DNA of 64,000 nucleotides. It comes from Pseudocercospora fijiensis CIRAD86 (Eukaryota; Ascomycota; Dothideomycetes; Mycosphaerellales; Mycosphaerellaceae). Location: NCBI RefSeq assembly GCF_000340215.1, contig NW_006921542.1:896267-960266 (forward strand), read 5' to 3'. The position numbers and the translations under genes were made by a program. Under the pieces are notes generated by a model. It was given only the letters and a program-made list of their open reading frames with translations, was not told the DNA's origin and searched no databases. The number at the start of each line of letters is the position of its first letter. Position 1 is the first letter of the stretch. Positions 24,378-60,735 of this stretch are shown piece by piece.

Positions 24378-24414
24378 TATAAAAGTCGTCGAATTAAGGA
24401 AAAAATTGCGTTAC

Positions 24415-25967: not shown

Positions 25968-25973
25968 TACAAA

Positions 25974-26964: not shown

Positions 26965-26992
26965 TATAAAAGTCGTCGAATTAAGGAAAAAA

Positions 26993-28136: not shown

Positions 28137-28239
28137 CTTAGATTTAGGGACGGCGCGGAGATAAAATTAGAAATATAGCCGGTACCTATATCCGGCAAAA
28201 GGATACGAAAATAGGCCTCCTCCTAGGTTAATCTAATAA

Positions 28240-29209: not shown

Positions 29210-32138
29210 TTACCTTCTACGTAAACGCTTCGTTTCCTTAAAGCTACTCTAAGCCTATATACGTTTTCGCTTCTCGACCTAGTATCGCCTTCTACCTCCG
29301 CCCTCCTCCTCTTCGTTATCGCTAATTAAGGTTTCGCTTAGACTAAATTTCGTATTCTCTTTACGCTCCTAGGTTTCCTTAATCTTAAGGTTTTCTAATT
29401 CCTCGATTAACTCCTTTAGTATAATCTTAAGTATCCTGCCTTAGCGACTCTAGTAGAGGAGATAGTATCGGAATACTATAATAGATTCGAAGATAGTAGG
29501 CGAGTATATTCGATTAAAGCGGCCCTAGTAATAAGCGATACTAAAAGACCTCTTATAGCCTATATCTACGCTCGGTATAGCGAGGACGTCCCGAGCGACC
29601 GACGCTATCGTTAGAAACTTAGGCTCTAACTGCTACTATCTAGCGAGAATATCGTCTCCGAATTCGTCTAGAAGACTAGTAAGATCTAGAGATTATTAGC
29701 CCTCTTTCTAAGCCTACAGGTTTAGTACTTACCTATACGCCGATAGAGATCGAACTCTTCTTAATTTACTTTAGTAGTTACTTCCTCTTCTACCTCTACT
29801 TCCTACCTACGAAACAGGTATAATATCGGAGCCTTCTAAACCTTCTTTTTCTTTATAGGAGCTGCATTTAGACTAGAATAGTCTAGTAATACTTACGCTA
29901 TTCCTCGTCCCCCTTTTTCTCTAGCTTCTACTAGTATATATCCTTTTCTACCGGAGTAAGCAAGTACGTAACGCTATAGATATCCCCGAACGACTAAAAG
30001 GTAGTACTATAATATTTATATAACTTAGTATAGGAGGTATCTATAGCTTTCGTTATAGCTACTTTCTAGGGAACGCTCTTCTTAGCTAGCTTAGCTACGG
30101 TTTCGTCGAGCTCGTTAAAGAGCTAGTTATAGTACGTAAAAACAAGGTAGATCGTCGGTTCTCGGGTTCTTCTAATCGTAGTAGTAACCTTCGCGTAATA
30201 CTTACTAATATCGACGAGATACTCTACTTAGCGCTATTCGGTAGGGGTAAGCCCGAGCTACTTAATACCCTCGGAACTCTAATAGATCTCGAGAGCGGTA
30301 CGTAAAGTATATCCCCTTATAACTATATAGAATCTCGAATCGAACCGGGTTTTAACGTCTTAGGTAAAACGGAGTAGGCGCTAAGGAGGCCGCTTTTACT
30401 ATCGCTTATTCTATACGATATTCTAGGTATCGGTTTTAGGGCGCTCGATTAGGTTCTTTTAAATAGCCTCGAATCGGTTATATCTCTATAAGCTCGAGTT
30501 CGTATATATTACTAGACGACGAAGCTAGAGAAAAAGAGTTAGAACTATACTAGGTAGCCGGCTACGGGTACTAGCTACGGATAAAAGTTATACCTTATAT
30601 AAAACGAGAGCGAGGCTATCTACCTTATCCTGTCTTATTACTATAACGAGTTTCTCGACTTTCGACTTTGCTTTATCCTTATCTAGGATCTTCTATTAGT
30701 CGTCGTTTAATAGTGCAATTTTAAGCGTCTTAAAGAGGGCTTAGATCGCGATTTAAACTATATAAGCTAGGTAGGGAAACTTCTATAAGGATATAACTAG
30801 TATCGACGTTAGCTCCGATTTAATAGGGCTAGGGCTATTACTAGGCTCCTCTTTATCGTTATTATCGTACGTATTATCGTACGTATCCGGAATCGTAGCG
30901 AGCTTAACATTCGGAAGATTAAGCTAGATTATAGACCTTATAATCTCCTCTACGTACTCGACCCTATCGATACGATTAGTAATTCTAAAGATATATATAA
31001 GTGAATTGTATATATAACGCCTTATATAATGTTCGATTATTACTAGCGTTATCCGTAGTAATCGAGATTAGTTTCGTTATTACGCTAACCCTATCTATTA
31101 CTATATAGATAAGCTTCGCTATATCCTTACTAGTATAGGAACCTAGAATTTTAGGGAATCCGATTATAAGTTCCTAGAGTTTCTAATCCGAATTAATAAA
31201 GTATAGTATAATCGAGAGGAAGGAGGCTCTTATAGTCCGGCTTAACTAGCTATCGATAGTAATAGCTACTTAGCGAGTATTACGGAGGATCTCCTAAATA
31301 TCGTCTAACGTAGCCTCTTTATTCTTTTCGAATATAATACGCTAGGTTATCGCGCCGAGAAATAGGGGAGGGTAGTTTATAAGATATAGGTATGTCTTCT
31401 ATATAGCCTCCCTTTCGTAGAAGTCTTCCGGAAGACCGTTTATAGCTAGCATTTCGTTTGCTAGTTGCTTAAAGTCTTTAGGGGAGAAATCGGTAGCCTT
31501 TAATCCTAGAGCTTCCTTAAGCGTAGCCTATAATAATTAGCTAGATCTCTACGGTTAATAAAAGTAGCCGGCAGCTATAGCCGGCAGCTATAGCCGGCAT
31601 ATTAGAAGACGTACCTCTTTCTAGAACGCTATATCTATATTAACCCTCCTCTCTTCTTAAGATTCCCGATACCGTTTAGAATAGAGATAGTTCGTAGGCG
31701 ATAAGTTCCTATCCCCTAGTTTCGGGTGTTTTAAGATTAAATCGTAGAAGTTATAGACAATTACTAGTTAACCTTTAAGTCGAGAACTCGTATAACGGTA
31801 TAATGCCCTCTCTATAAAGAACTTCTAGAATGTATCTGTTCGCTTCTTACTACCCTATCGTATCGAGTACTTCCGGAGTTTATACTCTTTCGAACGTAAG
31901 TATAAAGGGAACTATATCTTATAGACCTATTAATTAAACTACTCGGTATACTCGTGTTTCTAAAGATACGCCTAGCTAGCCTTTTCGAAGATATCCGGTT
32001 TAATACTCGATATTCTTATATCTTCGAATAACCTTCTACTTAGACTCTGTAAAGGTAAGGCCTAGGTAGTAGTACCCTATAATAAATTCCTACTACTAGG
32101 ATTCGGAGAGGATAAATCTAGCCCTAATCGTCGTTATA
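29210..32138 (-). pseudogene. hAT transposase, copy B, 5'-truncated
   Basis: Minus-strand homologue of the copy C transposase. The catalytic core reads A-I-D-S followed by a tryptophan-position stop and S-R-T-I-R-A near 31250, then I-T-x-D-N-A-S-N-N near 31040. The C-terminal hAT dimerisation block lies near 29450-29620. The N-terminal part is cut at 32138. The GCCGGC-bearing intron is visible at 31565-31600. Stop codons are abundant, so it is inactive. Confidence 0.85.
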
Positions 32139-40500: not shown

Positions 40501-41813
40501 ATCCTTTCGTTCTCGGCCTAAGTAGTACCCTATTTAGCAAACTATCTGATTTAGCTGTTATCGTAACTGCCTCGGTATAGAGACACGTTAAGGCCTACGA
40601 TATAAAGGGTTACCTCTGCCCTATTTAGTCGCCTTCTATAGTACGGTTTACTTTCGTCGACTAATCGCTATTAACTAAAGAGACGCGCGATATAGAACGT
40701 AACTTCTAGTTTAGCGATAATAGTAACATCTCCGACTTGGCTAGGTATATTAGTAATTAGGTTTCTAAGTACTTACAATCCGAATACTCTAACGCGACCG
40801 TAGGTCGAATAGAACTAAGTATTACGGATAAAGATACTCGGGTACTCGACAAGTTTCGCCCCTAGTTACTAACGAAAATAGTTCGCTTTAAGAAGACGCT
40901 AATATAGCAACCTATACCTAATACTCCGCGCGTACTAGCTGTCGATTGTCTACTATATTCCTATTTTAATATCGGCTTGCAATTCAAATCTATAGAAGAT
41001 ATAGTATTAAGCGAGTAGGTCAAAGAATAGAAGGTAGTAGAAGATATTAAATTTATATATATATCTAAGATAATGCGGGTCTTTACTATATTTCTATCGC
41101 TACTTCTCGTACTACGGGGCGACGATAAGGACTTAATTAAGGAACTTAGTACTTTTATACTATAGGATATCAAAAATATACTTCCTAGGATACGCGACTA
41201 CGGTTTATCGGATCCCTACCTCTAAGAATATATACTAACACTATATAACGAGCCGGTTATAGTGTCGCTATAGTATATAATCCGAATAAAGCGTAGTAAG
41301 CAGAGCTAGTACGGGTATAGAAGTAAGATTGTACTAGCTAGCTTTAAGCCGTAGTATATCTTCGTAGTAGACTTAGTACGTATCTATCTGCCCCCTATCT
41401 ACTAAGTATATAAGACTAACATTTTTGTAGTATCTTTAGTAGCTAGCTATATAGAAAGAAGGCACCTAGTATTACAATAATATCCTAAGCACTAGTAATA
41501 TAACGTATAGAATCCTTATCGATACTTAGAGTAGCTAGACCGATACTACTAGAGCCGACCTTGTTAAAGAGTTTGTATCTACGAGGAACAAGGTAAATAG
41601 ATATAGCGACGAGAAGTAGCTTATAGTAGCATATATAAGCTAGATTACAACTAGTATAAACCTCCCCCCTACGGATACCGTTATTATTATCGACAATTAC
41701 TAGACTCCGGAGGCTAATATTTAAATAGGTAGAAGAGTATCTCGTGCGGCCGGCGTTTAGAGGGCAGATTTTACGGAGTCGTACCGATTTGTAATAGTAT
41801 CGGTTGTAATTAT
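37569..41813 (+). pseudogene. SNF2-like helicase, first part, interrupted by hAT copy C
   Basis: A frame starting at an ATA (probable mutated ATG) at 37569 reads coherently for about 1,200 codons. The N-terminal third is low-complexity, Ser/Arg/Lys-rich and presumably regulatory. A Walker A-like motif G-x-D-V-G-I-G-K-T lies at about 39720-39746. A motif III-like segment, G-L-S-S-T-L-F, is near 40515. After a frameshift, motif V appears as I-N-L-P-P-T-D-T-V-I-I-I-D near 41655-41700, followed by a motif VI-like I-G-R-R-V-S-R. This order matches SNF2-family ATPases, which remodel chromatin. Motif II (D-E-A-H type) was not found with confidence. The gene is cut by hAT copy C, and the last ~65 codons resume at 51752. 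Confidence 0.65.
41806..41813. repeat. Target-site duplication GTAATTAT, left
   Basis: Eight bases immediately before the left hAT terminus, identical to 51752-51759. hAT transposases make 8-bp duplications. Confidence 0.97.
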
Positions 41814-41949
41814 TAGACCCCGCAGTGGTTCGGTTTCCGAACTACTAAACGTATATAGTTTGGTTTCTTAGCGGCGAACTAGCTCCCTAGTTCCGGTTTG
41901 GTTTTTTCGAACTATATAGATTCCTAGTTTGAACTAGAGACTATATTGG

Positions 41950-42260
41950 TTTTACTACAAGGACACTCTTATTCGACTGCCGGCTACGATTGCCGGCTAT
42001 AATAGTAACTCTGTTATATTTACTACGCTCTTTTGCCGTTGCTAGGGCGTAGTTGCCGTTACTAGGGCGTGGTTTTGCTACAAGGACACTCTTATTCGAC
42101 TGCCGGCCACGATTGCCGGCTATAATAGTTACTAGGTTGTATTTACTACGCTTTATTACCGTTGCTAGGGCGTGGTTGCCGTTGCTAGGGCGTAGTTGCC
42201 GTTGCTAGGGCGTAGTTGCTATTGCCGGGGCGTAGTTGCCGTAGTTGCGAAAGCTTACCT
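41950..42260 (+). repeat. Subterminal repeats of hAT copy C
   Basis: A ~119-bp block (about 41953-42071) is repeated from about 42072. It includes GACACTCTTATTCGACTGCC and two GCCGGC sites. It is followed by 19-20-base units of the type GTTGCTAGGGCGTAGTTGCC, seven or so in all, ending near 42250. Subterminal repeats in hAT elements commonly bind transposase; that role is inferred here. Confidence 0.75.
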
Positions 42261-42383
42261 ATATAACGTTACGTAGGCGGTAACAATTAGGGCTTCGCGA
42301 CATTCTTACACTTTCAACTTCTTCCTCTATACCTATACCGACAACAACTACTACACGCTGCGCCCCCGCCCCTTTCCCTTATA

Positions 42384-43801
42384 ATAGCAAGAGAGAAGCG
42401 CGCCGCGCGCTAAACAGAAGATAGAACTAAAGACCGCGAGTTTGTTTTGCCTAAGCGTCCAACTAAAAAGCGTAAGACTAAAGAGGAGTACTCTACGAAG
42501 AAGAATTCCGTACGAGACCGCGAGAGAAAGGACAAGATAGATAAGGATAAAAGAGCTAAGGATAAGAGAAGAAAGGCGCGGAATAAGGCATTCTATCGAT
42601 AGCTAGCGCCTATAGAAAAAAGTAAAGGTTGGAATAAGAAGACAACCTAAGAGAAGGCTAAGAGGAGGAAAGAATTGCGGCTAGTTTTCGAGCGTGAAGT
42701 TCTAGCAGCGTAAGTTAATCTAGCTAGCGGCCGTAGCTAGCAGCTATAGCCGGCAGCCGTAGCCGGCAGCTGTAGCCGGCATATTTTTCTTTAACACGTT
42801 AACTAATAGCATTCAGACCTGTAGTCGCTACCTCTATCGATACGACCGATAGTAACGGAGATGTTCAGATAGCCGAGAACAACAATGCTAGAGTTTAGGA
42901 TGCCGCGACAGAGCTTAATACTACGAATAAAGGAACTAAAAAAAGCGAGGAGATACTATACGTCGATCTAGTAATAGGTGCAGTCTTAGGGCCTAACGCT
43001 ATAGACGATAAGCGCTAGGAGTAGATCGAGCATAGTCAAAGAGACGAGATACTAGTAAAGGGCTAAGGCATAAGTCCTATCAATCTAGAAAATTATAGTT
43101 AAAGCTACTACGAAAAGCTAGCAAGGATTGGAATCGAGACTAGTCGTCTTTATATCCTCGATATAGAGTAGAAGTTTCTTTATTAGTATTAGAGCGAAGC
43201 CTTTACGTCTATAAAGGCAAAGTAGCTTGCGATTAATACGATCGGGGCTAGGTATCTAGGGACGGTAGAAGTGTTACTATAGGAGGAAGGGGTACAGGTA
43301 ATTATTCTATGCTCGGTATATATAGCCGGCGTTCGTAGCCGGTAGATACTAACAGTTAAACAGAAAGCGTTTCTCGAAGGCAGAGTGCTACTACTATATA
43401 AAATCTTTACTAAGGCAGAGAGGGCTTGTATCCGGAATCTAAGCTGCTAGTAGGATAGGTTGGCGTTAGAATTCTCTAAATCTCTATATAAGCCTCCGAA
43501 GGATTACCTATTTTAGCGATACGGCTTTAACTCGACTACTCCGCAGGCACCCGAAGAAGCTCGAGCGCTCTTTAAGGTCTTTACTAAGAAGCGGAAGGAG
43601 TTCGAGGATTAGGATTGGTTAATAGAGCTGTTAGTTAGTCTTAGGTTTCGTAGTTAGACTCGGCCTAAGCATTTGCTTGTCGAGTGTCTTATACCGAAAG
43701 AGGATAGATTAAGACTAAAAACGAGCTTAGATTCGTTAGGTATAGTAGCTCGGTTCCGTTAGTAGGAGAGAGCCGCCGTATAGAAGGCAAAATTCAGGTA
43801 G
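42384..43801 (+). pseudogene. Unidentified hAT cargo gene (~430 codons, two introns)
   Basis: The likely start is ATA at 42384 (mutated ATG, followed by GCA). Exon 1 encodes a very basic region with K-K-R-K and D-R-E-R-K-D-K stretches, probably nuclear. Intron 1 is 42710-42816 (GTAAGT donor, CTAAT branch, three GCCGGC motifs). Exon 2 runs to 43315. Intron 2 is 43316-43363 (GTATAT donor, TACTAAC branch at 43347-43353, one AGCCGGC and one AGCCGGT). The frame is kept across both junctions. Exon 3 ends in a charged helical region near 43800. TAG/TAA codons fall at Gln/Trp sites. No catalytic motif was seen. It is absent from truncated copies B and D, so its conservation cannot be tested here. Confidence 0.6.
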
Positions 43802-43910
43802 TTAGGGTAGCTAGGAAAGAAATTCTAGTAGTTAGGCTAGCTAGGGTAGCTAGGAAAAAAAATCTAGCAGTTAGGTAGCTAGGAAACAAAAAAAAAAGGT
43901 AGCTAGCTAT
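43797..43910 (+). repeat. GTTAGG/GTAGCTAGG minisatellite
   Basis: Units of GTAGCTAGGAAA and AGTTAGG alternate irregularly, with A-runs, just after the coding part of the first cargo gene. No protein-like frame continues through them. Confidence 0.7.
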
Positions 43911-44693
43911 TTACTGCCTAGCTGTTCCTAACGATACGATACTATAAAAGAAAGGGTGTTTCTCTATAGCTACTAGTATACATCTACTACTCCTAAGTCC
44001 TTACCTTACCGTACGAAACCTTAAAACATGCCGACCGACATTGTCTATATACTAGGCGCTATACTAGGAAGGGTAACAACGAGACGATAGTCGAAATAGT
44101 CTAGTATACGAGCGAGATTGCGACAACGTCGAGAGGAGGTCGCATACTTACCTTCGAGCCTATCGAGTCCTAGACGACGATTAGGGCTAGATTCATCCTC
44201 TCCGAATCCTAGTAGTAGGAATTTATTATAGGGTACTACTACCTAGTCCTTACCTTTACGGAGTCTAAGTAGAAGGTTGTTCGGAGATATAAGAATATCG
44301 AGTATTAACCCGGAAATCTTCGAAAAGGCTAGCTAGGCGTATCTTTAGAAACCCGAGTATATAGAGCAGTTCAATTAATAGGTCTATAAGATATAGTTCC
44401 CTTTATACTTACGTTCGAAGGAGTATAAACTCCGGAAGTACTCGATGCGATAGGGGAGTAAGGAGCGAACGGACACATTCTAGAAGTTCTTTATAGAGGG
44501 GGCATTGCACCGTTATACGACTTCTCGACTTAAAGGTTAACTAGTAATTGTCTGCAACTTCTACGGTTCAATCTTAAAATACCCGAAACTAGGGGATAGG
44601 AACTTATCGCCTACGAACTATCTCTATTCTAAACGGTGTCGGGAATCTTAAGGAGAGAGGAGAGTTAATGTAGATATAGCGTTCTAGAAAGAG

Positions 44694-44793
44694 GTATATC
44701 TTCTAAAATGCCGGCTATAGCTGCCGGCTATAGCTGCCGGCTATAGATTCCGGCTACCTAAATTAACCGTAGAGATCTAGCTAATTATTATAG
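44694..44793 (+). other. Predicted intron with GCCGGC repeats in the transposase
   Basis: GTATAT donor, CTAAT near 44781 and a TATAG acceptor bound 100 bases that hold three GCCGGCTATA-type units and one degenerate TTCCGGCTA. The protein frame resumes at GCTACG, which matches the hAT protein context. Confidence 0.65.
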
Positions 44794-45727
44794 GCTACGT
44801 TTAAGGAAGCTCTAGGATTGAAGGCTACCGATTTCTCCCCCGAAGACTTCAAGCAACTAGCAAACGAAATGCTAGCTATAAACGGTCTTCCGGAAGACTT
44901 CTACGAAAGGGAGTCTATATAGAAGATATACCTATATCTTACAAACTACCCTCCCCTATTTCTCGGCGCGACAACCTAGCGTATTATATTCGAAAAGAAT
45001 AAAGAGGCTACGTTAGACGACATTCGGGAGATCCTCCGTAATACTCGCCGAGTAGCTATTGCTATCGATAGCTAGTTAAGCCGGACTATAAGAGCCTCCT
45101 TCCTCTCGATTATGCTATACTTTATTAATTCGGATTAGAAACTCTAGGAACTTATAATCGGATTCCCTAAAATTCTAGGTTCCTATACTAGTAAGGACAT
45201 AGCGAAGCTTGTCTATGCGGCAATAGACAGGGTTAGCGTAATAACGAAACTAATCTCGATTACTGCGGACAACGCTAGTAATAATCGAACATTGTATAAG
45301 GCGTTATATATACAATTTACTCGTATATGTCTTTGAAATTACTAATTGTATCGATAGGGTCGAGTATGTAGAGGAGATTACAAGGTCTACAATCTAGCTT
45401 AATCTTCCGAATATTAAGCTCGCTACGATTCCGGATACGTACGACAATACGTACGATAATAACGATGAAGAGGAGCCTATTAATAGCCCTAGCCCTATTG
45501 AATCGGAGCCGACGTCGTTGCTAGTTACATCCCTATAGAAGTTTCCCTACCTCGCTTATATAGTTCAAATCGCGATCCGAGCCCTCTTTAAGACGCTTAA
45601 AATTGCACTATTAAACGACGACTAACAGAAGATCCTAGATAAGGATAAAGCAAAGTCGAAAGTCGAGAAACTTATTACAGCAATAAGACGGGATAAGGTA
45701 GAGAGCCTCGCTCTCGTTTTATATAAG

Positions 45728-45776
45728 GTATAACTTTTGTCCGTAGCCGGCACCTATAGCCGGCAACCTAGTATAG
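45728..45776 (+). other. Predicted short intron in the transposase
   Basis: GTATAA donor to TATAG acceptor, 49 bases, with two AGCCGGCA units. Coding frames on its two sides differ, as a non-multiple of three requires, but the exact acceptor could be the CTAG at 45771. Confidence 0.5.
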
Positions 45777-47144
45777 TTCTAACTCTTTTTCTCTAGCTTC
45801 GTCGTCTAGTAATATATACGAACTCGAGCTTATAGAGATATAACCGATTCGAGGCTATTTAAAAGAACCTAATCGAGCGCCCTAAAACCGATACCTAGAA
45901 TATCGCATAGAATAAGCGATAGCAAAAGCGGCCTCCTTAGCGCCTACTCCGTTTTACCTAAGACGTTAAGACCCGGTTCGATTCGACTTTCTATATAGTT
46001 ACGAGGGGATGTACTTTACGTACCGCTCTCGAGATCTATTAGAGTTCCGAGGGTATTAAGTAGCTCGGCCTTACCGCCGCCGAATAGCGCTAAGCAGAGT
46101 ATCTCGTCGATATTAGTAAGTATTACGCGAAGGTTACTACTATAATTGGAAGAACCCGAGGACCGACGATCTACCTTGTCTTTACGTACTATAACTAGCT
46201 CTTTAACGAGCTCGAGGAAACCGCAGCTAAGCTAGCTAAGAAGAGCGTTCCCTAGAAAGTAGCTATAACGAAAGCTATAGACACCTCCTATACTAAGTTG
46301 TATAAATATTATAGTGCTACCTTTAACTCGTTCGGGGATATCTATAGCGTTGCGTACTTGCTCAACCCGGTAGAAAAGGATATATACTAGCAGAGGCCGG
46401 AATAGAAGGCGGACGAGGTATAGCCGAAGTATTACTAGACTATTCTAGAAAAGATATTCTACGAGCGTCGGAAAGAAACTGGTCCAAATGCAGCTCCTAT
46501 AAAGAAAAAGAAGGTTTAGAAGGCTCCGATATTATACCTATTTCGTAGGTAGGAAGTAGAGGCAGAAGAGGAAGCAACTACTAAAGTAAATAAGGAAGAG
46601 TTCGATCTCTATCGGCGCGCGAGTAAGTACAAACCCGTAGGCTCGGAAAGAGGGCTAATAATCTCTAGATCTTACCGGTCTTCTAGACGAATTCGGAGAC
46701 GATATTCTCGCTATATAGTAGCGGTTAGAGCCTAAGTTTCTAACGATAGCGTCGGTCGCTCGGGACGTCCTCGCTATCCCGAGCGTAGGTATAGGCTATA
46801 AGAGGTCTTTTAGTATCGCTCGTTACTAGGGCCGCTTTAATCGAACATACTCGCCTACTACCTTCGAATCTATTATAGTATTCCGATACTATCTCCTCTA
46901 CTAGAATCGCTAAGGCAGGTTACTAAAGATTATACTAAAGGAGTTAATCGAGGAATTAGAAAACCTTAAGATCGAAGAAACCTAGGAGCGCGAAGAGAAT
47001 ACGAAATTTAGTCTAAGCGAAACCCTAATTAGCGATAACGAAGAGGAGGAGGGCGGAGGTAGAAGGCGATACCGGGTCGAGAAGCGGAAACGTATATAGG
47101 CTTAGAGCAGCTTTAAGGAGACGAAGCGTTTACGTATAAGGTAA

Positions 47145-47503
47145 TATAGCCGGCGTATATAGCCGGCATATGTCCGAAATGTGTTTCGAATTCCTAGGAC
47201 CTAAACAGACTAGTTGCTATAGCAACCGACCCCGCTTACCTACGGACTATTTCTAATTCTCTGTTCGCTCTTCCTCTCCTTCTTCCCTTTCCCTACATTC
47301 TTAAAGACAAATATGCCTTAAGGATTCGGCTCTTCGGGCCTTCCTAAGCCGGCTACCTCCCCTTCCTTAAGCTACTATCCTTTATTCGAATCTAACGATA
47401 ACCTAATAAGGCGGTTTAATAGAAGACTATTTATTCTAGAAGGTAAGAAGCATTAATATCTCCCTACGATTATATACTTATTAATTTTCTAGGTCCTACC
47501 GAT
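47145..47503. other. Spacer between transposase and H3-1
   Basis: Two AGCCGGC motifs at 47148-47165 follow the transposase stop. The stretch is conserved in copies B and D and has short AG-rich and CT-rich runs near 47270-47300. It presumably contains the H3-1 promoter. No frame was seen. Confidence 0.5.
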
Positions 47504-48590
47504 ATGCCCTCGTCGCCTAAACGCGCAGATAAATATCTTTAGAGGCTAAAGGGCAAGGGTAAAGCAAGCCAAGTATAGGGAGACCGTAGCGAGAACGAGA
47601 TATCGGAAGAGCAAGGCTCTCCGCAGTATATACGAAGGAAGGGGGTTCCTCGGAAAATAGTACCGAAAAACAAGAAGGCTATAGGTAGATAGGAGAAGGC
47701 TAAAAAGAGTAGGCGGACGAAGACTATCGCGAAGAAAAGTTATCTTTCTATTAAAAGAAAGAGAACAAGGCAGGACTCGACGACAAAGAAGCGGCGCTTT
47801 AAACTAGGTACTATTGCCCTTCGCTAGATCCGGCTTTTCTAAAACAAAAGAGGGACCGAGCTTTTAATCCCTAAGACTCCCTTCTAGCGACTCGTCCGAG
47901 AAATTATATTAGATTTTCGGTCTAGTATACGATTTACGGCTGAGGCGATTAATGCTCTTTAGGAAGCTACGGAGGCATTTCTCGTAACCGAGCTTAAGCT
48001 TTTAAACCTCCTTGCTATCTATACGAAGCGGGTTACTCTTTAAAATAAAGATATATAGCTTCTAGCTAAAATTCGGCGTCGGTTTATAGCGGATTAGTTG
48101 GAAATTGTATTTAGTCGTTAGATTAACCTAGGAGGAGGCCCATTTTCGCATCCTTTTACCGGCTATAGGTGCCGGCTACATTTCTAATTTTATCTCCGCG
48201 CCGTCCCTAAATCTAAGGTACGAAGTAGAAACCTAGCGCTCTATATTCACCCGGCTCTTATAGAGACGAGCTATATTTAGATTAGTTTCTTCGCATATCG
48301 CGACCTAGCGGATAGTAAGCGAAAGGGCGATAGAACGTTTATAATACGTCTCTATTTAGACCTAAAATACAAAGGTCCTAAGGAGCCCTAGCATCCTAAC
48401 TATAAGGAGATTCTTTAGCATTAGCACTTTGATCCTCTATACTACGAGGCAGATAGCAAGCCTGCGAGAGAGAAACTTTAACGAGAAATTCTCTATAATA
48501 CGTAGCGCTATTATATAGCTATAGATGCGCACTAAGTCCGGCAACTCGAAGAAGAATTAAGACAGCGTATTAGCGACCGAGGAGGAGATC
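47504..48590 (+). pseudogene. Histone H3-like gene H3-1 with long basic tail and probable C-terminal exon
   Basis: ATG at 47504. Residues 1-94 are Lys/Arg/Ser-rich (P-K-R, K-K-S-R-R-T-K, K-R-K-R-T-R), like the long tails of variant H3s. Residues ~95-200 follow the H3 fold: L-G-T-I-A-L-R, L-L-I-P-K-T-P-F-stop-R-L-V-R-E-I, A-L-stop-E-A-T-E-A-F-L-V, N-L-L-A-I-Y-T-K-R-V-T-L, K-D-I-stop-L-L-A-K-I-R-R-R. The stops are TAA/TAG at conserved glutamines. A candidate intron 48107-48217 (GTATTT to CTAAG, branch TTCTAAT, two GCCGGC motifs) would join phase 0 to a ~124-codon exon with W/Y-rich and E-E-E-L-R segments of unknown family. If not spliced, the protein ends near 48190. It would package DNA in place of normal H3; that is inference. 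Confidence 0.8.
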
Positions 48591-49200
48591 GATAGTATAC
48601 TAGTAGAGTCGAGGTCTTATAAGCGAAGCATAAGATAATATAGGCTCTTAGTCGTATAGAGTAACGTACTATATAAATAACTAGGCGTGCTACTCTTATT
48701 CACTTACGACCTATATCCTAGGATGCTCTTATCGTACTTTTTATACTCTTTTCTAATACCTTACCTGTAATCGCTCCGCGACAACCGAGTGAATATAAGC
48801 TATAGGATTTCCGCTCGGTACCTTAGCCTTCGAGATACGGCGGAGTTAATTCTCTATAATACGTAGCGCTATTGTATAGCTATAGATACGCACTAAGTCC
48901 GGCAACTCGAAGAAGATTTAAGACAGCGACCGAGCAGGAGAATAATAGTATATTAGTAGAGTCGAGGTCTTACAAGCGAAGTACGAGATAATATAGGCTC
49001 TTAGTCGTATAGAGTAACGTACTATATAAATAACTAGGCGTGCTACTCTTATTCACTTACGACCTATATCCTAGGATACTCTTCTCGTACTTTTTATACT
49101 CTTTTCTAATACCTCACCTATAAGCGCTCCGCGACAACCGAGTGAATATAAGCTATAGGGTTTCCGCTCGGTACCTTAGCCTCCGAGATAGGGCGGAGTT
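48488..49200 (+). repeat. Tandem duplication of ~361 bp inside copy C
   Basis: The text from AATTCTCTATAATACG at 48488 recurs at 48849 with scattered transitions and a short deletion. Copies A and B have only one version. The duplication covers the end of the putative H3-1 C-terminal exon and the spacer. Confidence 0.85.
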
Positions 49201-49505
49201 GAATTTAGAGCGATAGCCGGCACTCGTAGCCGGCACTCGTAGCCGGCATATAGAGACGGTAGTAGGCCTTTTCCTACTAAATAACTAGCTTGTTTAGTAT
49301 AGCCTACCTGATATTTCTTATATTTACTAGCAATAGGCCTAGGTTACTTATAAGATTACTATAGCTAGTAAAGGCATTACTAAAGAATATCTATACTATA
49401 GTAGGATACTATTATCACGCCGGCTATTCATTAAAAGGAGGCTTTCGCCTATTACTATGCCGGCTACATATGCCGGCTATATTTCAAAGTCTGCTATACC
49501 TGCCT
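49201..49505. other. Spacer of hAT copy C with GCCGGC clusters
   Basis: Clusters of AGCCGGCACTCGT-type units occur at 49212-49245 and GCCGGCTA units at 49420-49478. A stretch with AGGAGGCTTTCGCCT near 49436 is conserved in all copies. No coherent frame was found. Confidence 0.6.
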
Positions 49506-49508
49506 TTT

Positions 49509-49739
49509 TTAGCCGTGCCTGCCTTTTTTAGCCGTGCCTGCCTTCTTTCCTTGCTCTAACGTTACTATAATATAGGCTTGCGCGAAGCTTACTCTATTGC
49601 CTAGCGACACCGCGATACTACCGCTATATTCAACCTTCGTATCGATACCTATACCTCTACGCTCTATATCTACTACCTCCGCAATACCCTCGCTCCGCGC
49701 GCGCCTTCGTATACCTTCGTAACGCACTTTTTTCCTCAA
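49509..49739 (-). CDS. Small open frame divergent from H3-2, copy C
   Basis: This is the same basic product as 26993-27211, open for about 76 codons, but starting only with TTG or GTG in the present sequence. R-R-R-A-R-S-E-G-I near the N-terminus and K-K-A-G-T-A-K-K-G at the end. A loose resemblance to part of histone H4 was considered but is too weak to claim. The 5' end lies within 20 bases of the H3-2 start on the opposite strand. Confidence 0.4.
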   Translation of the reverse strand: MRKKVRYEGIRRRARSEGIAEVVDIERRGIGIDTKVEYSGSIAVSLGNRVSFAQAYIIVTLEQGKKAGTAKKGRHG

Positions 49740-49917
49740 TTCGACGACTTTTATAATAGCGAGTCTACTTAACTAAGTTACGACGCCTCGCAAGAAGGGA
49801 CCTACTACTTCTACGGGTCGCAATAAGATCGGAAATAGTAGAACGAGTATAGTACATTAACGCAAGATAGCTACTACTACTGCCGCTAGCTCCGGTGCTA
49901 GAAAGGGCGTCGCGAGT

Positions 49918-49998
49918 AAGGCTCCGCGTAAGACAACGGCGGGCAAGGCTCCGCGCAAGACAACGGCGGGTAAGGCTCTACGCAAGACGACAACTAGC
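49918..49998 (+). repeat. Three 27-bp units in the H3-2 tail
   Basis: Units at 49918-49944, 49945-49971 and 49972-49998 each encode K-A-(P/L)-R-K followed by T-T-A-G or T-T-T-S. Copy A has one unit, copy B two, and copy D an irregular set of about four. Confidence 0.9.
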
Positions 49999-50047
49999 GC
50001 TTCTACTGCTAGTAGCAATCGTACGAAGCGTCGATAGCGCCTAGGAA

Positions 50048-50138
50048 GTAAGTCCTATTTATAGCCGGTAGCGTAGCCGGCAGCGTAGCCGGTAGCGTAG
50101 CCGGCATTCTTACTATCTTTTTACTAATCCTTCTTTAG
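50048..50138 (+). other. Intron 1 of H3-2 with GCCGGC repeats
   Basis: GTAAGT donor, TACTAAT branch site at 50122-50128 and CTTTAG acceptor. It joins phase 1 exons so that G-T-V-A-L-R is restored. Four AGCCGG[CT]AGCGT units lie in its middle. Confidence 0.88.
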
Positions 50139-50321
50139 CCGTAGCCCTCCGTAAGATTCGGCAGTATTAGAAGAGTTCTCAGCTCCTAATCCGCAAAACT
50201 CCTTTCTAACGACTTGTTCGCGAAATTGCCTAGGATTATAGAACGGACCTTCGCTTCTAAGCCTCCGCAATAGGCGCCCTTTAAGAGGCTACAGAAGCCT
50301 ACCTAGTTCGTATCTTTAAAT

Positions 50322-50369
50322 GTATGTTTCTCTTCTACCTCTTTTCGGACTATACTAATACTATTTTAG
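50322..50369 (+). other. Intron 2 of H3-2
   Basis: GTATGT donor, TACTAAT at 50353-50359, TTTTAG acceptor; 48 bases, no GCCGGC. Splicing restores the H3 stretch between E-A-Y-L-V and N-L-x-A-I-x-A-K-R at its usual length. Confidence 0.88.
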
Positions 50370-50779
50370 CGGTCAACCTTATAGCTATCTACGCGAAGCG
50401 TATAACGATTATAGACAAGGATTTCAAAGCACTCGATCAGATTCTAAAAGGCTAGAATGTCTATATTCGAGACGGTACTAGGTAGGATAGATGTTCTAGT
50501 AGAAAGGATGTTCGTAGTATTATCTACAAGCTTTTCTATATACGAAATGAGCCGCTGTTATACGGCGCTGTATACCGCGCTCTAAATACTCTCTAAGCAT
50601 ATATATATAGTATAGTATACTTTATTGGCCGTACGGAATGGAAGTCTCCTAAAATCCCGTTAGTACTAAGGAGTAAAAAGGCCGGCTACGCTGCCGGCTA
50701 CGCTGCCGGCTACGCTACTAGCTACGCTGCTAGGTTTTTTAAAGAACTAAAAGAAGATAGACATTCCGGTTGATTTGTA

Positions 50780-51319
50780 TTAGTTTAGATTTTTATAAAA
50801 AGAAAACAGGGAAAAATAAGGAAGGTTGAAGAGCCTAATAGTTATAGTTATAGGCACTATCCCTGTTTTCTAGAGCATATCATATACCTGCCTTCGCAAC
50901 TCTACCTAATACTCCCTCTAAATATCCTTATACTCTACCTACTGAAAATTCAACTAGGTACCTAGACCTATAGCTGCCTCTATATCTTTCACTATCTTCT
51001 ACAGGTTGAAGGCCTCTTCTATAGCAGCCTCTACCTCCTTATACAACACGAAGTTACTACCTGCCCTACCCTTTATATCTCCTAAATAACTAAGAGTTCT
51101 AAGGAACGAACTAGCATTCGGCCTTAGTATAGCGAGTAACTAGTGGAACGTTCTACAGAGCTGCCTTATAGCTCTTTTATATACTATACCGATACCGAGG
51201 GAGGAGCTATCCTAGTACTTAATATTGTCGAATAGTTCGGTAGGAAAGTGTATAAACTTCTTAAGGAGGAGGACTTCTAGGGAAATCGATGAGTTCTACC
51301 TAGATCTAGATAAAGACAT
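50780..51319 (-). pseudogene. 180-codon unidentified frame, copy C
   Basis: ATG at 51319, TAA at 50780-50782, exactly 540 bases as in copy B. TAG/TAA codons lie at the same kinds of positions. It converges with H3-2, whose extended frame would stop seven bases away. That tight spacing suggests a compact gene pair. No recognised domain. Confidence 0.6.
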
Positions 51320-51731
51320 TCTGCTAAGCAGTTAGGGAATTGAACCGTAAACGAAAGGATAAAATTCATATCTAAGGAGTGCAGTTTCCGAACTAAACTA
51401 TAATGCCTTATATATATATATGTATGCTTTTGATTGGTTAGTGCCCTTAGCTGATTGTCTATAGATTTGAGGTCATATAAGTACCTTTATACAACTACGT
51501 AGCCTAAGTAGGATTCGAAAATTCTATAAGTACTAAGGACTAAAAATGCCGGCCACGCTGCCGGCTATACTACTAAGTCTTATAAAGGGCTTGCTTGAAG
51601 CTACGTATACATTCGTACACTTCTTAAAAACCGATAAATTATATAGTTCGAACTAGCTACTTATATAGTTGCTTAGCAAACTAACCTAAACCAAACCAGA
51701 GTTTCGGCTTAGCAAACCAAACCAAACCAAC
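51320..51731. other. Right subterminal region of hAT copy C
   Basis: The stretch is conserved in copies A and B. It holds a (TA/CA)n run near 51408-51426, a GCCGGCCACGCTGCCGGC pair near 51549, and a 150-bp end with AACCAAACC-type repeats close to the terminus (51680-51735). It presumably contains the promoter of the 180-codon frame and transposase-binding sites. Confidence 0.6.
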
Positions 51732-51751
51732 CCGAACTACTACGGGGTCTA

Positions 51752-51759
51752 GTAATTAT
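51752..51759. repeat. Target-site duplication GTAATTAT, right
   Basis: Identical to 41806-41813, immediately after the right hAT terminus CGGGGTCTA. Confidence 0.97.
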
Positions 51760-51957
51760 ATAGGTAGTATAGGTTACAAGTAGAGAGGTACGAGCTTAGG
51801 ATATATAATAATCGCTCGGCTTCGAGAAGGAAAAAAAGAGGAAAAAGGGTAAAGTATAATAGGATATAGCTATAGCGTACGTCGGCGCTAGTATTACGAG
51901 CGGGGAAAGTAGTATATAGAGTCGACGTCGATATAGCAGATACGCTATAAAATATTA
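51752..51957 (+). pseudogene. SNF2-like helicase, last part, after the hAT insertion
   Basis: Removing the hAT element and one target duplication continues the frame of 41640-41813, giving a C-terminal tail with S-R-E-V-R-A, E-K-E-K-K-R-K-K-G-K and a Ser/Arg-rich end. The first strong stop that fits is TAG at 51955, although it too could be a mutated Gln codon. Confidence 0.55.
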
Positions 51958-52029
51958 GTGTAAGTAAAGCAAGCCCTAACTTTGTATTTATCCGCGCCTA
52001 ATATTAATAACTACTACTATAGGTATAAA

Positions 52030-52231
52030 TTAGCGATACGACTCGATAACCGACTTAGGGTACGAGTCGGCAAGCCTATATATTAGGAAGCGACCTAGAC
52101 TACCGCTCTACCCTTTAAATTATTAGCGATGCGACTCGATAACCGACTAGCTATCCGACTTAGTCCGGCTTAGGTTACTAATCGGCAAACCGACGTATTA
52201 GGAAGCTACCTAAACTACCGCCCTACCCTTT
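52030..52231 (+). repeat. Imperfect ~90-110 bp tandem duplication
   Basis: CGACTCGATAACCGACT... to TACCGC(T/C)CTACCCTTT occurs from about 52037 and again from about 52131. The second copy has an extra internal GACTTAGTCCGG segment. There is no coding frame; the stretch from 51958 to 52330 is otherwise featureless. Confidence 0.7.
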
Positions 52232-54938: not shown

Positions 54939-55275
54939 TAGACGCCGTAGTAGTTCGGGTTAGGTTAGGTTAGTTTGCTAAGCTAAAATTCCGGGTTGGT
55001 TTAGTTCGGTTTACTGAGAAACTATAGGATTAGCTAGCTCGAACTATAGAATTTATCGGTTTCTAACACTTAAAGCATGCCCTTTATAAGACTAGTACTA
55101 ATAGAATTTCCGAAGACTTTAATTCTATACGCCTAAGAAAGCATATTATACTATTTACATATACCTAGAGAGCATATAGAGCGCGCTATATAGCGCTGTA
55201 TTTTGCGTACAGAAACGCTTATAGAGGATACTAAGAACAACTACGCTACCTATTACCCTAGCGAATAAAGACATT

Positions 55276-56003
55276 CTAGCTAGTAAGAATCTAATCGAGG
55301 GCGATAAAATCCTTCTATATTATCGTAACGCGCTTAGCGTAAATAGCTATAAGCTAGACAGCTAAAATAGCATTAGTATAGTTCGAAAAGAGGTAGAAGA
55401 GAAACATATATTCGAAGATGCGAATTAGGTAGGCTTCTATAGCCTCCTAAAGGGCCTCGATTGCGGATCTCTAAAAGCGAAGATCGGCTTAATAGAAGAC
55501 GGCAATTTCGCAAACAAGTCGCTAGAAGGGAGCTTTTAGAATAAGGAGCTAGTTACCCCTCTAATACCTCCGAATCTTATAAAGGGCTACGGCTAAAGAA
55601 GGATTAGTAAAAAGGAGTAAAGATGCCGGCTACGCTACCGGCTATACTACCGGCTATACTGCCGGCTATAGCTGCCGGCTATAGCTGCCGGCTATAGAGA
55701 AAACTTACTTCCTAGGCGCTATCGACGCTTACTACGATTGTTACTACTAGTAGTAGAAGCACTCGTCGTCGTCTTACGCGGAGTCTTGCCCGCCGTTGTC
55801 TTATTCGCCGTCGTCTTACCCGCTATCGTCTTACGCGGAGCCTTGCCCGTAGTCTGCTTTTAACTAGCGCGACCGGTAGCGGTAGCGGCTATCTTACGTA
55901 AATGTATAGTACTCTTTCTACTAGGTCTAGTTATATTGCGACCCTAGGTAGCGGTAGGTCCCTTCTTACGACCCTTCTAAATTTAGTCGAGTAGATTCGC
56001 TAT
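55276..56003 (-). pseudogene. Histone H3-like gene H3-2, copy D
   Basis: Mutated start ATA at 56003. The tail (about 55780-55860) reads K-Q-T-T-G-K-A-P-R-K-T, even closer to canonical H3 than the other copies, followed by extra A-G-K-T-T and A-N-K-T-T units, so the tail repeat was expanded differently. Intron 1 carries five GCCGGCTA(C/T) motifs (55623-55695). The fold region is present but damaged, and the second half is the most degraded of all copies. Confidence 0.72.
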
Positions 56004-56035
56004 TATAAAAGTCGTCGAATTAGTAAAAAGGTACG

Positions 56036-56270
56036 TTACGAAGGTATAGAGAGGCGCGCGCGGAGCGGAGGTATAGTAGAGATAGTAGATATAGAGCGTA
56101 GAAGTATAGGTATCGATACGAAGATTATATATAGCGAGAGGGGTAGTAACGCGGTATCGCTAGGCAACTAAGTAAGCTTCGCGCAAGCCCGTAGTAGAGT
56201 AACGTTATAGTAAGCAAAAAAGGTAGGTACGGCTAAAAGAGGTAGGAACGGCAAACTTTAAAATATAGCT
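56036..56270 (+). pseudogene. Small opposing frame, copy D
   Basis: Homologue of 26993-27211 with TAA and TAG interruptions and the same in-frame S-E-R-G insertion as copy A. Confidence 0.4.
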
Positions 56271-57045
56271 AGTACTTATAGCTAGTATAGGAAAACGGCG
56301 AAAGCCTCCTTTTAGTAAATAGTCGGCGTAATACTAGTAGCCTACTATAATATAGGTATTTTTTAGTAGTTCGATTAAATTCCGAACCGGCTTTCTCGAC
56401 TAGAAATAGAAATACCTATCCGCCGTATAGTAAAACGGCGACTCGCTTTATAGCGAGAATCTAGTAAATTCTACTTAGCAATACTATTAGCAGATAATTA
56501 AAAATTATAAAAAAAGAAATAACTAGTATAGGAATTAAACCTACGACCTCTTAGACCCTATCGATTATAGCGCCTTAGAGTTCTCGGGACCTAGGGTAGT
56601 ATAGCTTAGGGAGCGGGGACTCCTTTAGCGTACCTAGCAACTATGTCTTTTATAGCTAAGAATTATACTACTAGACTAACTAGCTAGAAGATAAAATAGA
56701 CAGGAAATGTCTAGAATATATACTTTTAGAATACTAGATTCTCGGCGTTCCTACTAGAGAATTCCTACTTCGTAGCCTAGATCTAGGTAGGGCGCGGAGT
56801 TGAAATAAGAGGTATAGCTAGCATATATAGCCGGTAAAAGGATACGGAAAGAAGCCTCCTCCTACTAAAAAGCCGGCCTGTCTAGGGAAGCCTGCCGTAG
56901 TATAGATATTCTCTAGCAATACGATTAATAGAGAATTAGGGAGCGTTAATAGAGAAGGAGAAGGAGAAGGCATTAAAGGGTTTACGCCCCGAGAGGGGCC
57001 GTTTACCGGGTAAGCGATTAGTCTAGTTACTAAATATAAATCCTA
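56271..57045. other. Spacer and unrelated insert in hAT copy D
   Basis: The first ~70 bases match the hAT spacer. From about 56345 to 56760 the sequence has no counterpart in copies A-C and no frame. From about 56765 it returns to the segment that flanks H3-1 (CTAGATCTAGGTAGGGCGCGG). GCCGGT/GCCGGC sites remain at 56827 and 56870. Confidence 0.5.
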
Positions 57046-57616
57046 ATTATTCCGCTATAAATCGACGCCGAATCTTAGCTAGAAGCTATATATCTTTTTA
57101 TTAAAGAGTAACCCGCTTCGTATAGATAGTAAGAAGGTTAGAAAGCTCTAACTCGGTTATAAGAAATGCCTCCGTAGCTTCCTAAAGAGCACTAATCGCC
57201 TTAGCCGTAAATCGTATACCGGACTTAAAATCTAATATAGTTTCTCGGACGAGTCGCTAGAAAGGAGCCTTAGGGATTAAAAGCTTAGTCCCCTTTTTTT
57301 CTTAGAATTTCCGGATCTCGCGAAGGGTAATAGTATCCGGTTTAAAGCGCCGGCGTTTGCCCTTTTTCCTTATAGAAGAATAACTCTTCTTCGCGATAGT
57401 CTTCGTCTGCCTACTTTTTTCTCCTACTTTAGCTAAAGCCGCCTTGTTTTTCGATACTGTTTTATAAGGAACCCCCTTCCTTTATATATACTACGAATAG
57501 TCTTCCTCTTCCGATATCTCGTTCTCGCTATAGTCTTCCCGTACTAAGCGTCCTTTACCCTTACCCTTTTCTAAGTTCTTAAGGTATCTTTATACGCGTT
57601 CGGGCGACGAGGGTAT
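57046..57616 (-). pseudogene. Histone H3-like gene H3-1, copy D
   Basis: Start mutated to ATA at 57616. The basic tail is slightly shorter than in copy C, and the H3 fold blocks are recognisable with many RIP changes. A 372-bp hAT derivative sits 11 bases upstream of the start, so its promoter is disrupted. Confidence 0.72.
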
Positions 57617-57619
57617 ACC

Positions 57620-57627
57620 GGTAGCAC
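57620..57627. repeat. Target-site duplication GGTAGCAC, left
   Basis: Identical to 58000-58007 on the other side of the 372-bp element; copy B has the empty site (GGTAGGAC). Confidence 0.95.
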
Positions 57628-57999
57628 TAGACCCCGCAGTAGTCCGGGTTGGTTTGGTTTGGTTTGCTAAGCCGAAATTCTAGTTTAGTTTAGTTTAGTT
57701 TGCTAAGAAACCGGTATACGGACCGGTTTGCCGGCTACGTGCCGGCTACGGACAAAAACCTATCCTAAAACACGTCTAAACAGCCCGAAACACAGATGTA
57801 ATCGTATAGCGTATACAATATAGGCTCCCGTCGCGTCCCGGACTCGTTCCGAGGTCGTCGTATGTCGTCGCAGTTTGCTCGGAAACTAGCTTAGACTAGC
57901 GGGGCAAAAAACTAAACCGGAACTAAACCGGAGGGGTACCGCTAAGAAACCAAACTATATACGTTTAGTAGTTCGGAAACCGAACTACTACGGGGTCTA
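57628..57999. mobile_element. 372-bp non-autonomous hAT derivative
   Basis: The ends are TAGACCCCGCAGTAGTCCGG and the inverted CCGAACTACTACGGGGTCTA. The left ~90 bases resemble the right end of copy C (GGTTGGTTTGG repeats), and the right ~90 bases resemble its left end (AAACTATATACGTTTAGTAG). It is therefore an internal-deletion derivative of the large element, mobilised in trans. It has no coding capacity and fewer RIP changes than the surrounding copy D, so it arrived later. Confidence 0.95.
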
Positions 58000-58007
58000 G
58001 GTAGCAC
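58000..58007. repeat. Target-site duplication GGTAGCAC, right
   Basis: Exact match to 57620-57627. Confidence 0.95.
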
Positions 58008-58439
58008 CTAGAAAATCTCTAAGCCTTTAATCGTATAAAGACATTAAGTGCCTCTTACCTTCCGAACTAAATAGTCTTCTATTAAACCGGTTTAGCAGGC
58101 CCTCGTTAGATTCGTAATTAGTACAGTCGCTATAGGGAGAGGAGGCGGCTAACTTAGCAAGGCCCGAAGAGCCGAATCCGTAAGGCATATTTGTATTTTA
58201 GAATATAGGGAAAGGGAAGAAGGAGAGGAAGAGCGAATAGAGACTTAGAAATAGTAGTAGGCGAGCGGGGTAGGTTGCTATAGCAACTACTCTATTTAAG
58301 AATTTAAAATACATTAGGAACGTATACCGGCTATATACGCCGGCTATATACGCCGGCTATATATACCGACTATATAGGTCGGTTATATATAGAAACTCTA
58401 GTAAATGTAGCTATTTGCCGGCTATACCTGCCGGCTATA
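58008..58439. other. Spacer of copy D between H3-1 and transposase
   Basis: Matches 47145-47503 of copy C in reverse but has an expanded GCCGGCTATATAC repeat cluster at about 58325-58438 (six or more degenerate units, against two in copy C). Confidence 0.6.
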
Positions 58440-60735
58440 TTACCTTCTACGTAAACGCTTCGCCTACTTTAAGTCGCCCTTAGCTTATATACGCTTCCGC
58501 TTCTCGACCCGTAGTCGCCTTCTACCTCTACCCTCTTCCTCTTCGTTATCGCTAATAAGGGTCTCGCTTAGACTAAATTTCGTATTCTCTTCGCGCTCCT
58601 AGGTTTCTTCGATCTCAAGCTTTTCTAATTAGTCGATAAGCTCCTTTAACAAGATATATAGTATCTTACCTTAGCGACTCTAGTAGAGGAGGTAGTATCG
58701 GAATACTATAATAGATTCGAAGGTAGTAGGCGAGTATATTCGATTAAACCGGCCTTAGTAACGAGCGATACTAAAAGATCTCTTATAGCCTATACCTATA
58801 CTCGGAATAGCGAGGACGTCCCGAGCGATCGAAGCTATCGTTAGAAACTTAGACTCTAACCGCTGCTATATAGCGAGAATATCGTCTCCGAATTCGTCTT
58901 AAAGACTAGTAAGATCTAGAGATATTAGCCCTCTTTCCGAGCCTACAAGTTTAGCACTTACCTACGCTCTAATAGAGATCGAACTCTTCTTTATTTAGTA
59001 TAGAACTAACTTGCTCTTCTGCCTCTACTTCCTACCTACTAAATAGGTAGGATATCGGAGCCTTCTTAGCCTTCCTTTTCCTAACACGACCTACATTTAG
59101 ACTAGTTTCTTTCCGACGCTTACTAAATATCTTTTCTAGAACCTCCTAATATCGCTTAAGCTATACCTTGTTATCCTTCTATTCCTCCCTCTACTAGTAT
59201 ATATCCTTTTTAACTAGGTTTAGTAAGCACGTAACGCCGTAGAGCTCCCCGAACGACTCGAAGGTAGTACTATAATATTTGTCTAGCTTAGTATAGGAAG
59301 CCTCTATAGCTTTCGTTATAGCTACTTTCTAAGGGACGCTCTTCTTAGCTAGCTTAGCCGCGAGTTCTTTAAGCTAATTAAAGAGCTAGTTATAGTACGT
59401 AAAGATAAGGTAGATCGTCGGTCCTCGGGTTCTTCTAATTGTAGTAGTAACCTTTGCGTAATGTTTGCTAATATCTACGAGATACTCTACTTAGCGCTAT
59501 TCGGCGGGTATAAGCGCGAGCTACTTAATACTCTTAGTATTCTAATAGAGCTCTAGAGCGGTACGTAAAGTACATCCCCTCGTAAGTATATAGAAAGTCG
59601 AATCGAATCGGGTCTTAATATCTTAGGTAAAACGGAGTAGGCGCTAAGGAGGCCGCTTTTGCTATCGCTTATTCTATACGATATTCTAGGCATCGACTTT
59701 AAGGCGCTCGATAAGGGTCTTTTAAATAGCCTCGAATTAGTTATATCTCTACAAGCTCGAGTTCGTATAGATTGCTAGACGACGAAGCTAGAAAAAGAGG
59801 GTTAATGCTATCCTAGATTGCCGGCTATAGGTGCCGGCTATAGGTGCCGGCTATAGATAAAGGTTATACCTTATATAAAACGAGAGCGAGGCTCTCTGCC
59901 TTATTCTATTTTATTGCCGTAACGAGTTTCTCGACTCTCGACTTTGCTTTACCCTTATCTAGGACCTTCTATTAGTCGTCGTTAGATAGTGCAATTTTAA
60001 GCGTCTTAAAAAGGGCTCGGATCGCAATTTGAACTATATAAGCGAGGTAGGGAAACTTCTATAGGGATGTAACCGCTAATATTAGCTCCTATTCTATAGG
60101 GCCGTTAGGGTTTCTTGTCTAAGGGTCCTTATTATCTTCCGGGTCGTACGTATCCGAAATCGTAGTAAGCTTAATATTAGGTAGATTAAGCTAGATTATA
60201 GACCTTGTAATCTCGTCTATATAGTCGACCCTATCGGTACTATTAGTTATTTCGAAGACAAATGCAAATAGATAGTATATATAACGCCTTATATAATGTT
60301 CGATTATTACTAGCGTTGTCTATAGTAATCGAGATTAGTTTCGTAGTTACGCTAACCCTATCTATTACCGTATAGATAAGCTTCGCTATATCCTAACCGG
60401 TATAGGAACCTAGAATTTCTAGGAATCCGATTAGCATTTCCTAGAGTTTCTAATCCGAATTAATAAAGTATAGTATAATAGAGAGGAAGGAGGCCCTTAT
60501 AGTCCGGCTTAACTAGCTATCGATAGTAATAGCTACTCGGCGAGATTATAGAGAATCTCCCGAATATCGTCTAACGTAGCCTCTTTATTCTTCTCGAATA
60601 TAGTACGCTACGTAGTCGCGCCTAGAAATATAGGAAGGTACTTTGTAAGATATAGGTATGTCTTCTATATAGAATCCCTTTCGAAGAGGTCTTCCGGAAG
60701 ACCGTTTATAGCTAACATTTCGTTTGCTACTGTTC
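58440..60735 (-). pseudogene. hAT transposase, copy D, truncated
   Basis: Minus-strand homologue of the copy C transposase from the dimerisation block (58700-58870) to the start of the catalytic half (about 60480-60730). GCCGGC repeats mark the intron at 59820-59850. It is broken by many RIP stops and cut at 60735. Confidence 0.85.

Follow-up and report, generated by a model that had tools for sequence, protein, structure and literature searches.

H3-carrying hAT transposons of the kind analysed here, a 9,938-bp element with two histone H3-like genes (H3-1 and H3-2) in a 64,000-nucleotide stretch of the Pseudocercospora fijiensis CIRAD86 genome (contig NW_006921542.1, positions 896,267 to 960,266 of the forward strand; hereafter the window), are already known from publications of 2013 and 2019. 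Dhillon et al. (2019) describe such an element in P. fijiensis and five relatives, with 784 H3-like sequences and 471 repeat elements carrying H3-like sequences in P. fijiensis; at full length it measures 9.5–9.9 kb, has 20-bp inverted ends and 8-bp duplications and holds one or two H3s, and DUF659 was reported in the transposase of the P. fijiensis element (PMC6710886). They also report CpA-to-TpA repeat-induced point mutation (RIP) in all copies, a second H3 copy with a 16-residue insertion and, on scaffold 6 of P. fijiensis, one intact H3 of three exons; elements were merged irrespective of family, and no direct or inverted repeats were reported (PMC6710886). Both H3 copies were described as having exon–exon junctions without the host intron, and an origin from a transcript or retrocopy was concluded from this (PMC6710886). 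Manning et al. (2013) described a 5.6-kb hAT element of Pyrenophora tritici-repentis with an H3L gene and expressed sequence tags (ESTs). Compared by description, it likewise has inverted ends, a transposase, a further open reading frame and an H3-like gene distinct from both canonical H3 and CENP-A; it differs in being shorter and mostly intact, with a single H3L gene and with ESTs (PMC3538342). No nucleotide similarity was reported between the Pyrenophora and Pseudocercospora-group elements (PMC6710886). Repeat R25 of Stagonospora nodorum is RIP-degraded; once deRIPped, its consensus resembles histone H3 and has a weak match to a DNA transposon. Unlike the case of the window element, the published account of R25 reclassifies it as an endogenous gene region and does not show it as a complete element (PMC3017866). 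Literature searches of titles and abstract starts gave no further work devoted to H3-carrying elements. The view, in a preliminary description of this locus, that H3-like cargo was undescribed in any family of fungal DNA transposons is thus contradicted by the 2013 and 2019 papers, and a new family name for the element was considered and dropped.

The window element has in common with that of Dhillon et al. its length, 8-bp duplications, two H3s and RIP, and the genome has an intact three-exon H3 on contig 6, as on the published scaffold 6. Because these features agree, the two are almost certainly the same element, with end sequences compared by description only. Where our reading departs from the published one is in two introns in H3-2, in the division of the copies into three families and in arrays of TAGCCGGCA sites; new here are the intron reading, two old H3 lineages, and the finding that each element has 22–27 TAGCCGGCA sites, arrayed outside its coding blocks. 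We consider it an even call that the window holds a RIP-broken copy of the published hAT-type family in which both H3-variant genes were likely working parts before mutation.

The complete element occupies window positions 41814–51751; its inverted ends are of the TAGACCCCG type and its 8-bp duplication is perfect, as had been proposed from inspection of the letters. The left end reads TAGACCCCGCAGTGGTTCGG at 41814 (inverted end 41814–41833, plus strand, its start identical in 20 further copies), the right end reads TAGACCCCGTAGTAGTTCGG inward from 51751 (51732–51751, minus strand, placed by end comparison), and the flanks carry the target-site duplication GTAATTAT at 41806–41813 and 51752–51759. 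For the end check, both ends were fetched from 20 further copies chosen for holding both H3 genes. Terminal inverted repeats of about 20 bp are present in 21 of 21 copies of the window element's family, and perfect 8-bp duplications, differing from copy to copy, flank 19 of the 20 further copies; in the remaining copy the inverted ends are present and the flanks mismatch at six of eight bases. Two of the features looked for as marks of the hAT superfamily, 8-bp duplications and short terminal inverted repeats, were therefore found.

Copies elsewhere were sought in the source assembly (73.94 Mb, 30 contigs), for which all genome copy counts are lower bounds. The best 40 of 412 candidates from a DNA search with H3-1 all match 649–651 of 651 bases, 39 of them, besides the window, at 98% identity; the best 40 of 463 candidates with H3-2 gave 40 full-length matches (94–97% besides the window) and 37 short matches to a repeat array. 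The copies fall into three families: A, with the window element; E (loci C13 and C6), about 88–90% identical to A over the main blocks; and D (C12, C17, C20a, C20b and window 54939–60729), about 74–86% identical. The E and D loci read hold both H3 genes, arranged as in A. A perfect duplication flanks one element of E and one of D (GCCTTTCG, GAAGTAAA), and another D element lacks one (GTAACTTG / GTTACTAG).

That both translations follow the histone H3 fold, as first suggested from the letters alone, is borne out by profile searches with PF00125 (cut-off 26.4 bits). H3-1 (47504–48097, plus strand, TAG at 48095–48097) lacks an intron, has a tail of about 100 residues and internal stops, and when 47504–48094 is read through the stops it scores 86.9 bits (E 1.6e-24); spliced H3-2 (49774–50452) scores 98.4 bits (E 4.4e-28). 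Among 176 solved-structure sequences matching H3-1, the best 60 are all histone H3, and H3-1 shares 48 identical residues with the 88-codon host H3 fold, excluding a two-codon insertion. Structural prediction, made for H3-1, places helices at residues 101–116, 124–138, 146–173 and 181–196, the αN-α1-α2-α3 order. This model is of modest confidence and weak support (mean predicted local distance difference test score, pLDDT, 59, with 65–80 over most of the fold; predicted template modelling score, pTM, 0.32), and its matches to nucleosome structures in the PDB, with target TM-scores (template modelling scores) of 0.37–0.46 in the 50 rows listed, are likewise weak support. Against the protein collection, H3-1 gave 724 matches, the best 120 being mostly H3s together with P0052 of Tricladium and a CENP-A-like protein, P0097, of Bimuria. 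H3-2 gave 7,814; the best 120 are H3s and H3-like predicted proteins with animal or plant names, among which a fungal transposon H3 was not distinguishable.

How the H3 genes came to be in the element is the point on which the best-surviving rival turns. It holds that a host H3 transcript or retrocopy was taken up by chance and then carried along without a function while RIP degraded it, and we give it a substantial chance, somewhat short of even. The absence of an intron from H3-1 speaks for it, as do the exon–exon junctions that Dhillon et al. described in both copies (PMC6710886). H3-2 tells against it. Specifically, its tail exon (49774–50047, plus strand, defined by translation and family comparison, with a putative start) is followed by a predicted 91-nt intron (50048–50138; GTAAGT...TACTAAT...TTTAG), whose donor GTAAGT and acceptor TAG are found in 21 of 21 family A and seven of seven family D and E copies. 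When this segment is removed the frame reads RLG-TVALRK, as in H3. The predicted intron is in phase 1 in the threonine codon, and intron 2 of the host H3 is in phase 1 in the glycine codon directly before it. A distance of a single codon between the two speaks against H3-2 having come from a transcript. From its two predicted introns (the second is taken up below), H3-2 was therefore likely acquired as a gene and not as a copied transcript.

The rival also accounts poorly for the retention of two separate H3 lineages in three families. In a tree of 30 rows, from which the H3-1 of D20b was excluded because a one-base gap breaks its frame, the five H3-1 rows form one clade and the six H3-2 rows another (99/98 each). 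Each H3 gene has one clade across families, and we therefore read the pair as two separate lineages, both predating the split of the three families. H3-1, H3-2 and P0052 stand apart from the other H3s at 90/91, a joint grouping that may reflect long-branch attraction. P0052 (Tricladium varicosporioides), a fungal histone-fold protein of unsure type, has a long branch and groups with H3-1 at 86/85. CENP-A identity was considered for the element H3s and rejected, as the host CENP-A pairs with P0097 (95/98) and the element H3s lie outside.

RIP makes transitions only, no transversions, and for this reason selection was measured as between-family transversions by codon position (first/second/third), with uncorrected p values and family pairs that are not independent. 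E6 against D20a was disregarded for genes 1 and 2, whose partial ends are misaligned there. Between family A and D12, the transposase blocks carry 27/17/45 transversions (p 0.0006) and noncoding sequence 47/40/43. The H3-2 fold carries 8/8/17 (p 0.023), with a third-position share of 10 of 14 in exon 3, and H3-1 carries 9/8/12, which is not significant. Fixed differences, counted over 20 or 21 copies of A, two of E and five of D, are 6/7/14 for the H3-2 fold between A and D (p 0.036). In H3-1 the rate of transversions per site (0.052) is near that of the transposase (0.043), against 0.112 in noncoding sequence. We take these counts as modest evidence of selection on the H3-2 fold, which is thus weakly supported, and as leaving selection on H3-1 undecided.

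The broken state of the genes is what RIP would be expected to leave. The window is saturated with RIP: the ratio of observed to expected CpA is 0.34 in the element and 0.08–0.52 over the sixteen 4-kb bins of the window, 14 of which lie below the element's value. Because of this saturation there is no ATG-started open frame of at least 70 codons in 41500–52100. Across 21 copies of a 711-base H3-2 segment, 102 of 106 variable columns are C/T only or A/G only. All five stops in the H3-2 fold stand at host glutamine positions, as do five of the six in the H3-1 fold, the sixth being at a glutamate; this is the placement that RIP of CAG and CAA codons in open frames would give. When a histone-profile search of the genome was scored for the best 150 of 772 candidates, 148 carried stops, and the stop-free matches were only the host CENP-A on contig 5 and the host H3 on contig 6, intact in three exons.

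The case for the H3 genes as former working parts rests further on the identical pair and order of the genes in A, E and D, and the published expression of an H3-like gene in the Pyrenophora hAT counts towards it (PMC3538342). Several observations weigh against it, some of which the passenger explanation accommodates readily, as it does selection that is undecided for H3-1 and weak for H3-2. The published view is passive capture (PMC6710886). No intact element copy of either H3 was seen among the best 150 of 772 histone matches, every scored element match being broken. Fixed differences in the H3-2 fold are not significant between A and E (5/4/5) or E and D (6/7/10), the fold changes at 0.124 transversions per site, as fast as noncoding sequence, and a third-position excess in H3-1 is not significant in any pair (A–E 8/4/5, A–D 10/6/11, E–D 6/3/8). 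By the same codon-position counts, the tails of both H3s are without sign of constraint. The transposase match to Pfam stays below threshold, and a 681-residue read-through of the transposase found no relative in the protein collection (E 0.001; 7,997 candidates scored).

A second segment of H3-2, 48 nt long, interrupts the fold between exon 2 (50139–50321, plus strand, αN to α2; 77.5 bits against PF00125 for this exon alone) and exon 3 (50370–50455, the end of α2 and α3, with TAG at 50453–50455). It lies at 50322–50369, reads GTATGT...TACTAAT...TTTTAG and equals the published 16-residue insertion, which we think is best read as a predicted 48-nt intron. A coding insertion, as published, is the alternative, and we consider it improbable. 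In favour of this alternative, the segment is divisible by three in length, is free of transversions fixed between any pair of families, which is more constraint than splice signals require, and begins with GT in no more than 14 of the 21 A copies and in none of the seven from D and E. In family A the opening hexamer is GTATGT in eight copies, GTATAT in six, ATATGT in four and ATATAT in three, and in families D and E together ATATAT in five and ATATGT in two. The variants can be explained as RIP products of GTATGT, the GT in D and E itself being a reconstruction. The alternative is further opposed by the retained TACTAAT branch-type signal and by the final TAG, present in all 21 A copies and in 28 of 28 over A, D and E. 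Signals of this kind at 48-nt spacing are rare: they occur in two of 127,906 48-nt windows in the 64 kb, both within element copies (50322 and 26378–26425), and in one of 989,100 in shuffled element sequence. In addition, the match to H3 breaks in helix α2 at the end of the segment, and with both segments removed H3-2 matches host H3 without a gap over 88 codons, 54 of them identical.

That the H3-like segments are chance neighbours of the transposon is scarcely credible and is refuted for the copies examined, since the ends enclose both genes in all 20 further copies, 19 of them with perfect duplications, and both recur in two further families; H3 segments outside the termini were looked for in genomic copies and did not occur, in agreement with the preliminary view that the histones travel with the element, and nothing was found in support of the chance reading.

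The element also contains arrays of a short site, counted as TAGCCGG[CT]A or its complement. There are 27 such sites in the element and three in the 38,632 window bases outside the main hAT copies, and 200 shuffles of the element sequence gave a mean of 0.28 and a maximum of two. The other families have similar numbers (24 in E13, 22 in D12 and 23 in D20b), and none of the 27 element sites falls within the coding blocks used, which total 4,454 bases. They occur near the left end (41978, 41991 and 42114; 41978–42122, minus strand), as threes at 13-bp spacing (42747–42781, plus strand; 44709–44743, minus strand), at 43336 between two coding blocks of gene 2, as pairs between transposase blocks (45744–45765, plus strand) and at 48157–48178 (minus strand), as a group of five at 49214–49479 (49214, 49227 and 49240 on the plus strand, 49458 and 49471 on the minus strand), as four within predicted intron 1 of H3-2, and as two 12 bp apart at 50692–50712 (minus strand), with a further site at 51559. 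Pairs 13 bp apart number 1,276 in the genome, and a reversed control pattern gave none; 32 of 35 paired-site places sampled from those listed are at most 7 kb from an H3 match on contig 1. Other hAT elements have subterminal sites, and by analogy the TAGCCGGCA arrays are probably transposase binding sites.

The remaining coding blocks of the element, all on the plus strand, are less readily assigned. A transposase-like region of five coding blocks (44815–47080), seen in translation and with a third-position transversion excess between families, had been called a hAT transposase; the region stands, and the hAT dimerisation domain (Dimer_Tnp_hAT, PF05699; cut-off 21.4 bits) is matched at its C-terminal end only below threshold, at 16.8 and 13.9 bits in the window and at 16.3–20.1 bits in four of five further copies. 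Our Pfam searches of the transposase did not find DUF659. Gene 1 is a lysine-rich block read through stops (42414–42713), and a Pfam search of 42390–42800 gave no match; gene 2 (42818–43780; blocks 42818–43309 and 43349–43780, from translation) and the block at 48194–48480 gave no Pfam match above cut-off. Just inside the left end, 41947–42192 holds a 123-bp unit twice in tandem (91%) together with an array of 20-bp repeats, and a tandem duplication of about 350 bp lies between H3-1 and H3-2 at 48487–49205 (repeat families of 276 and 81 nt, 94–96%). Two other copies in the window, noted earlier, were placed at about 22496–32134 and about 54939–60729. In the first, on the minus strand, pieces of related elements are nested, and one of them holds the 48-nt intron-like segment at 26378–26425. 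Within the second, a family D copy, sits a 372-bp element (57628–57999). It has TAGACCCCG ends flanked by a perfect duplication (GGTAGCAC), contains two TAGCCGGCA sites and is a short non-autonomous derivative.

If both H3 genes were working parts, a life cycle can be proposed. The element would move by cut and paste under its encoded transposase, with the TAGCCGGCA arrays as probable binding sites, and would have taken H3-2 from a genomic H3 gene with introns. During the element's active life both variants would have been expressed, paired with host H4 and built into nucleosomes; the likeliest place for these is the element's own DNA or its surroundings, where silencing marks would be weakened by the altered tails, until RIP put an end to this. 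Expression, nucleosome entry and the effect on silencing are inferred here from sequence. The preliminary description had likewise proposed that such H3s could change nucleosomes, help the element against silencing or bias its insertion. The tail of H3-2 offers a lead: it retains GKAPRK-like stretches, and the ARKS near the K9 place is altered, to ARKG in A and SRKT in E, a departure that would alter modification near K9. The same tail holds three 27-nt tandem repeats (49912–49992), encoding a nine-residue unit with APRK or ALRK whose number varies between copies. A fuller version of this proposal, which we put forward only tentatively and hold to be rather doubtful, is that a hAT lineage has its own pair of H3 variants, maintained by selection for a part in its life cycle and one of them acquired as a genomic gene with introns, to build its own chromatin with tails altered around methylation sites, and that it marks its DNA with the arrays of TAGCCGGCA sites at 12–13-bp spacing, which its proteins bind.

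These points question the published origin of one H3 gene and give a testable reason why the H3s might be more than passengers. Should the introns and the two old H3 lineages be borne out, one of the two genes would no longer fit the published account of captured transcripts and passive pseudogenes, which would then need revising for it, and one could test, through nucleosomes, silencing or RIP on element DNA, why H3 genes are carried by hAT elements of Dothideomycetes.

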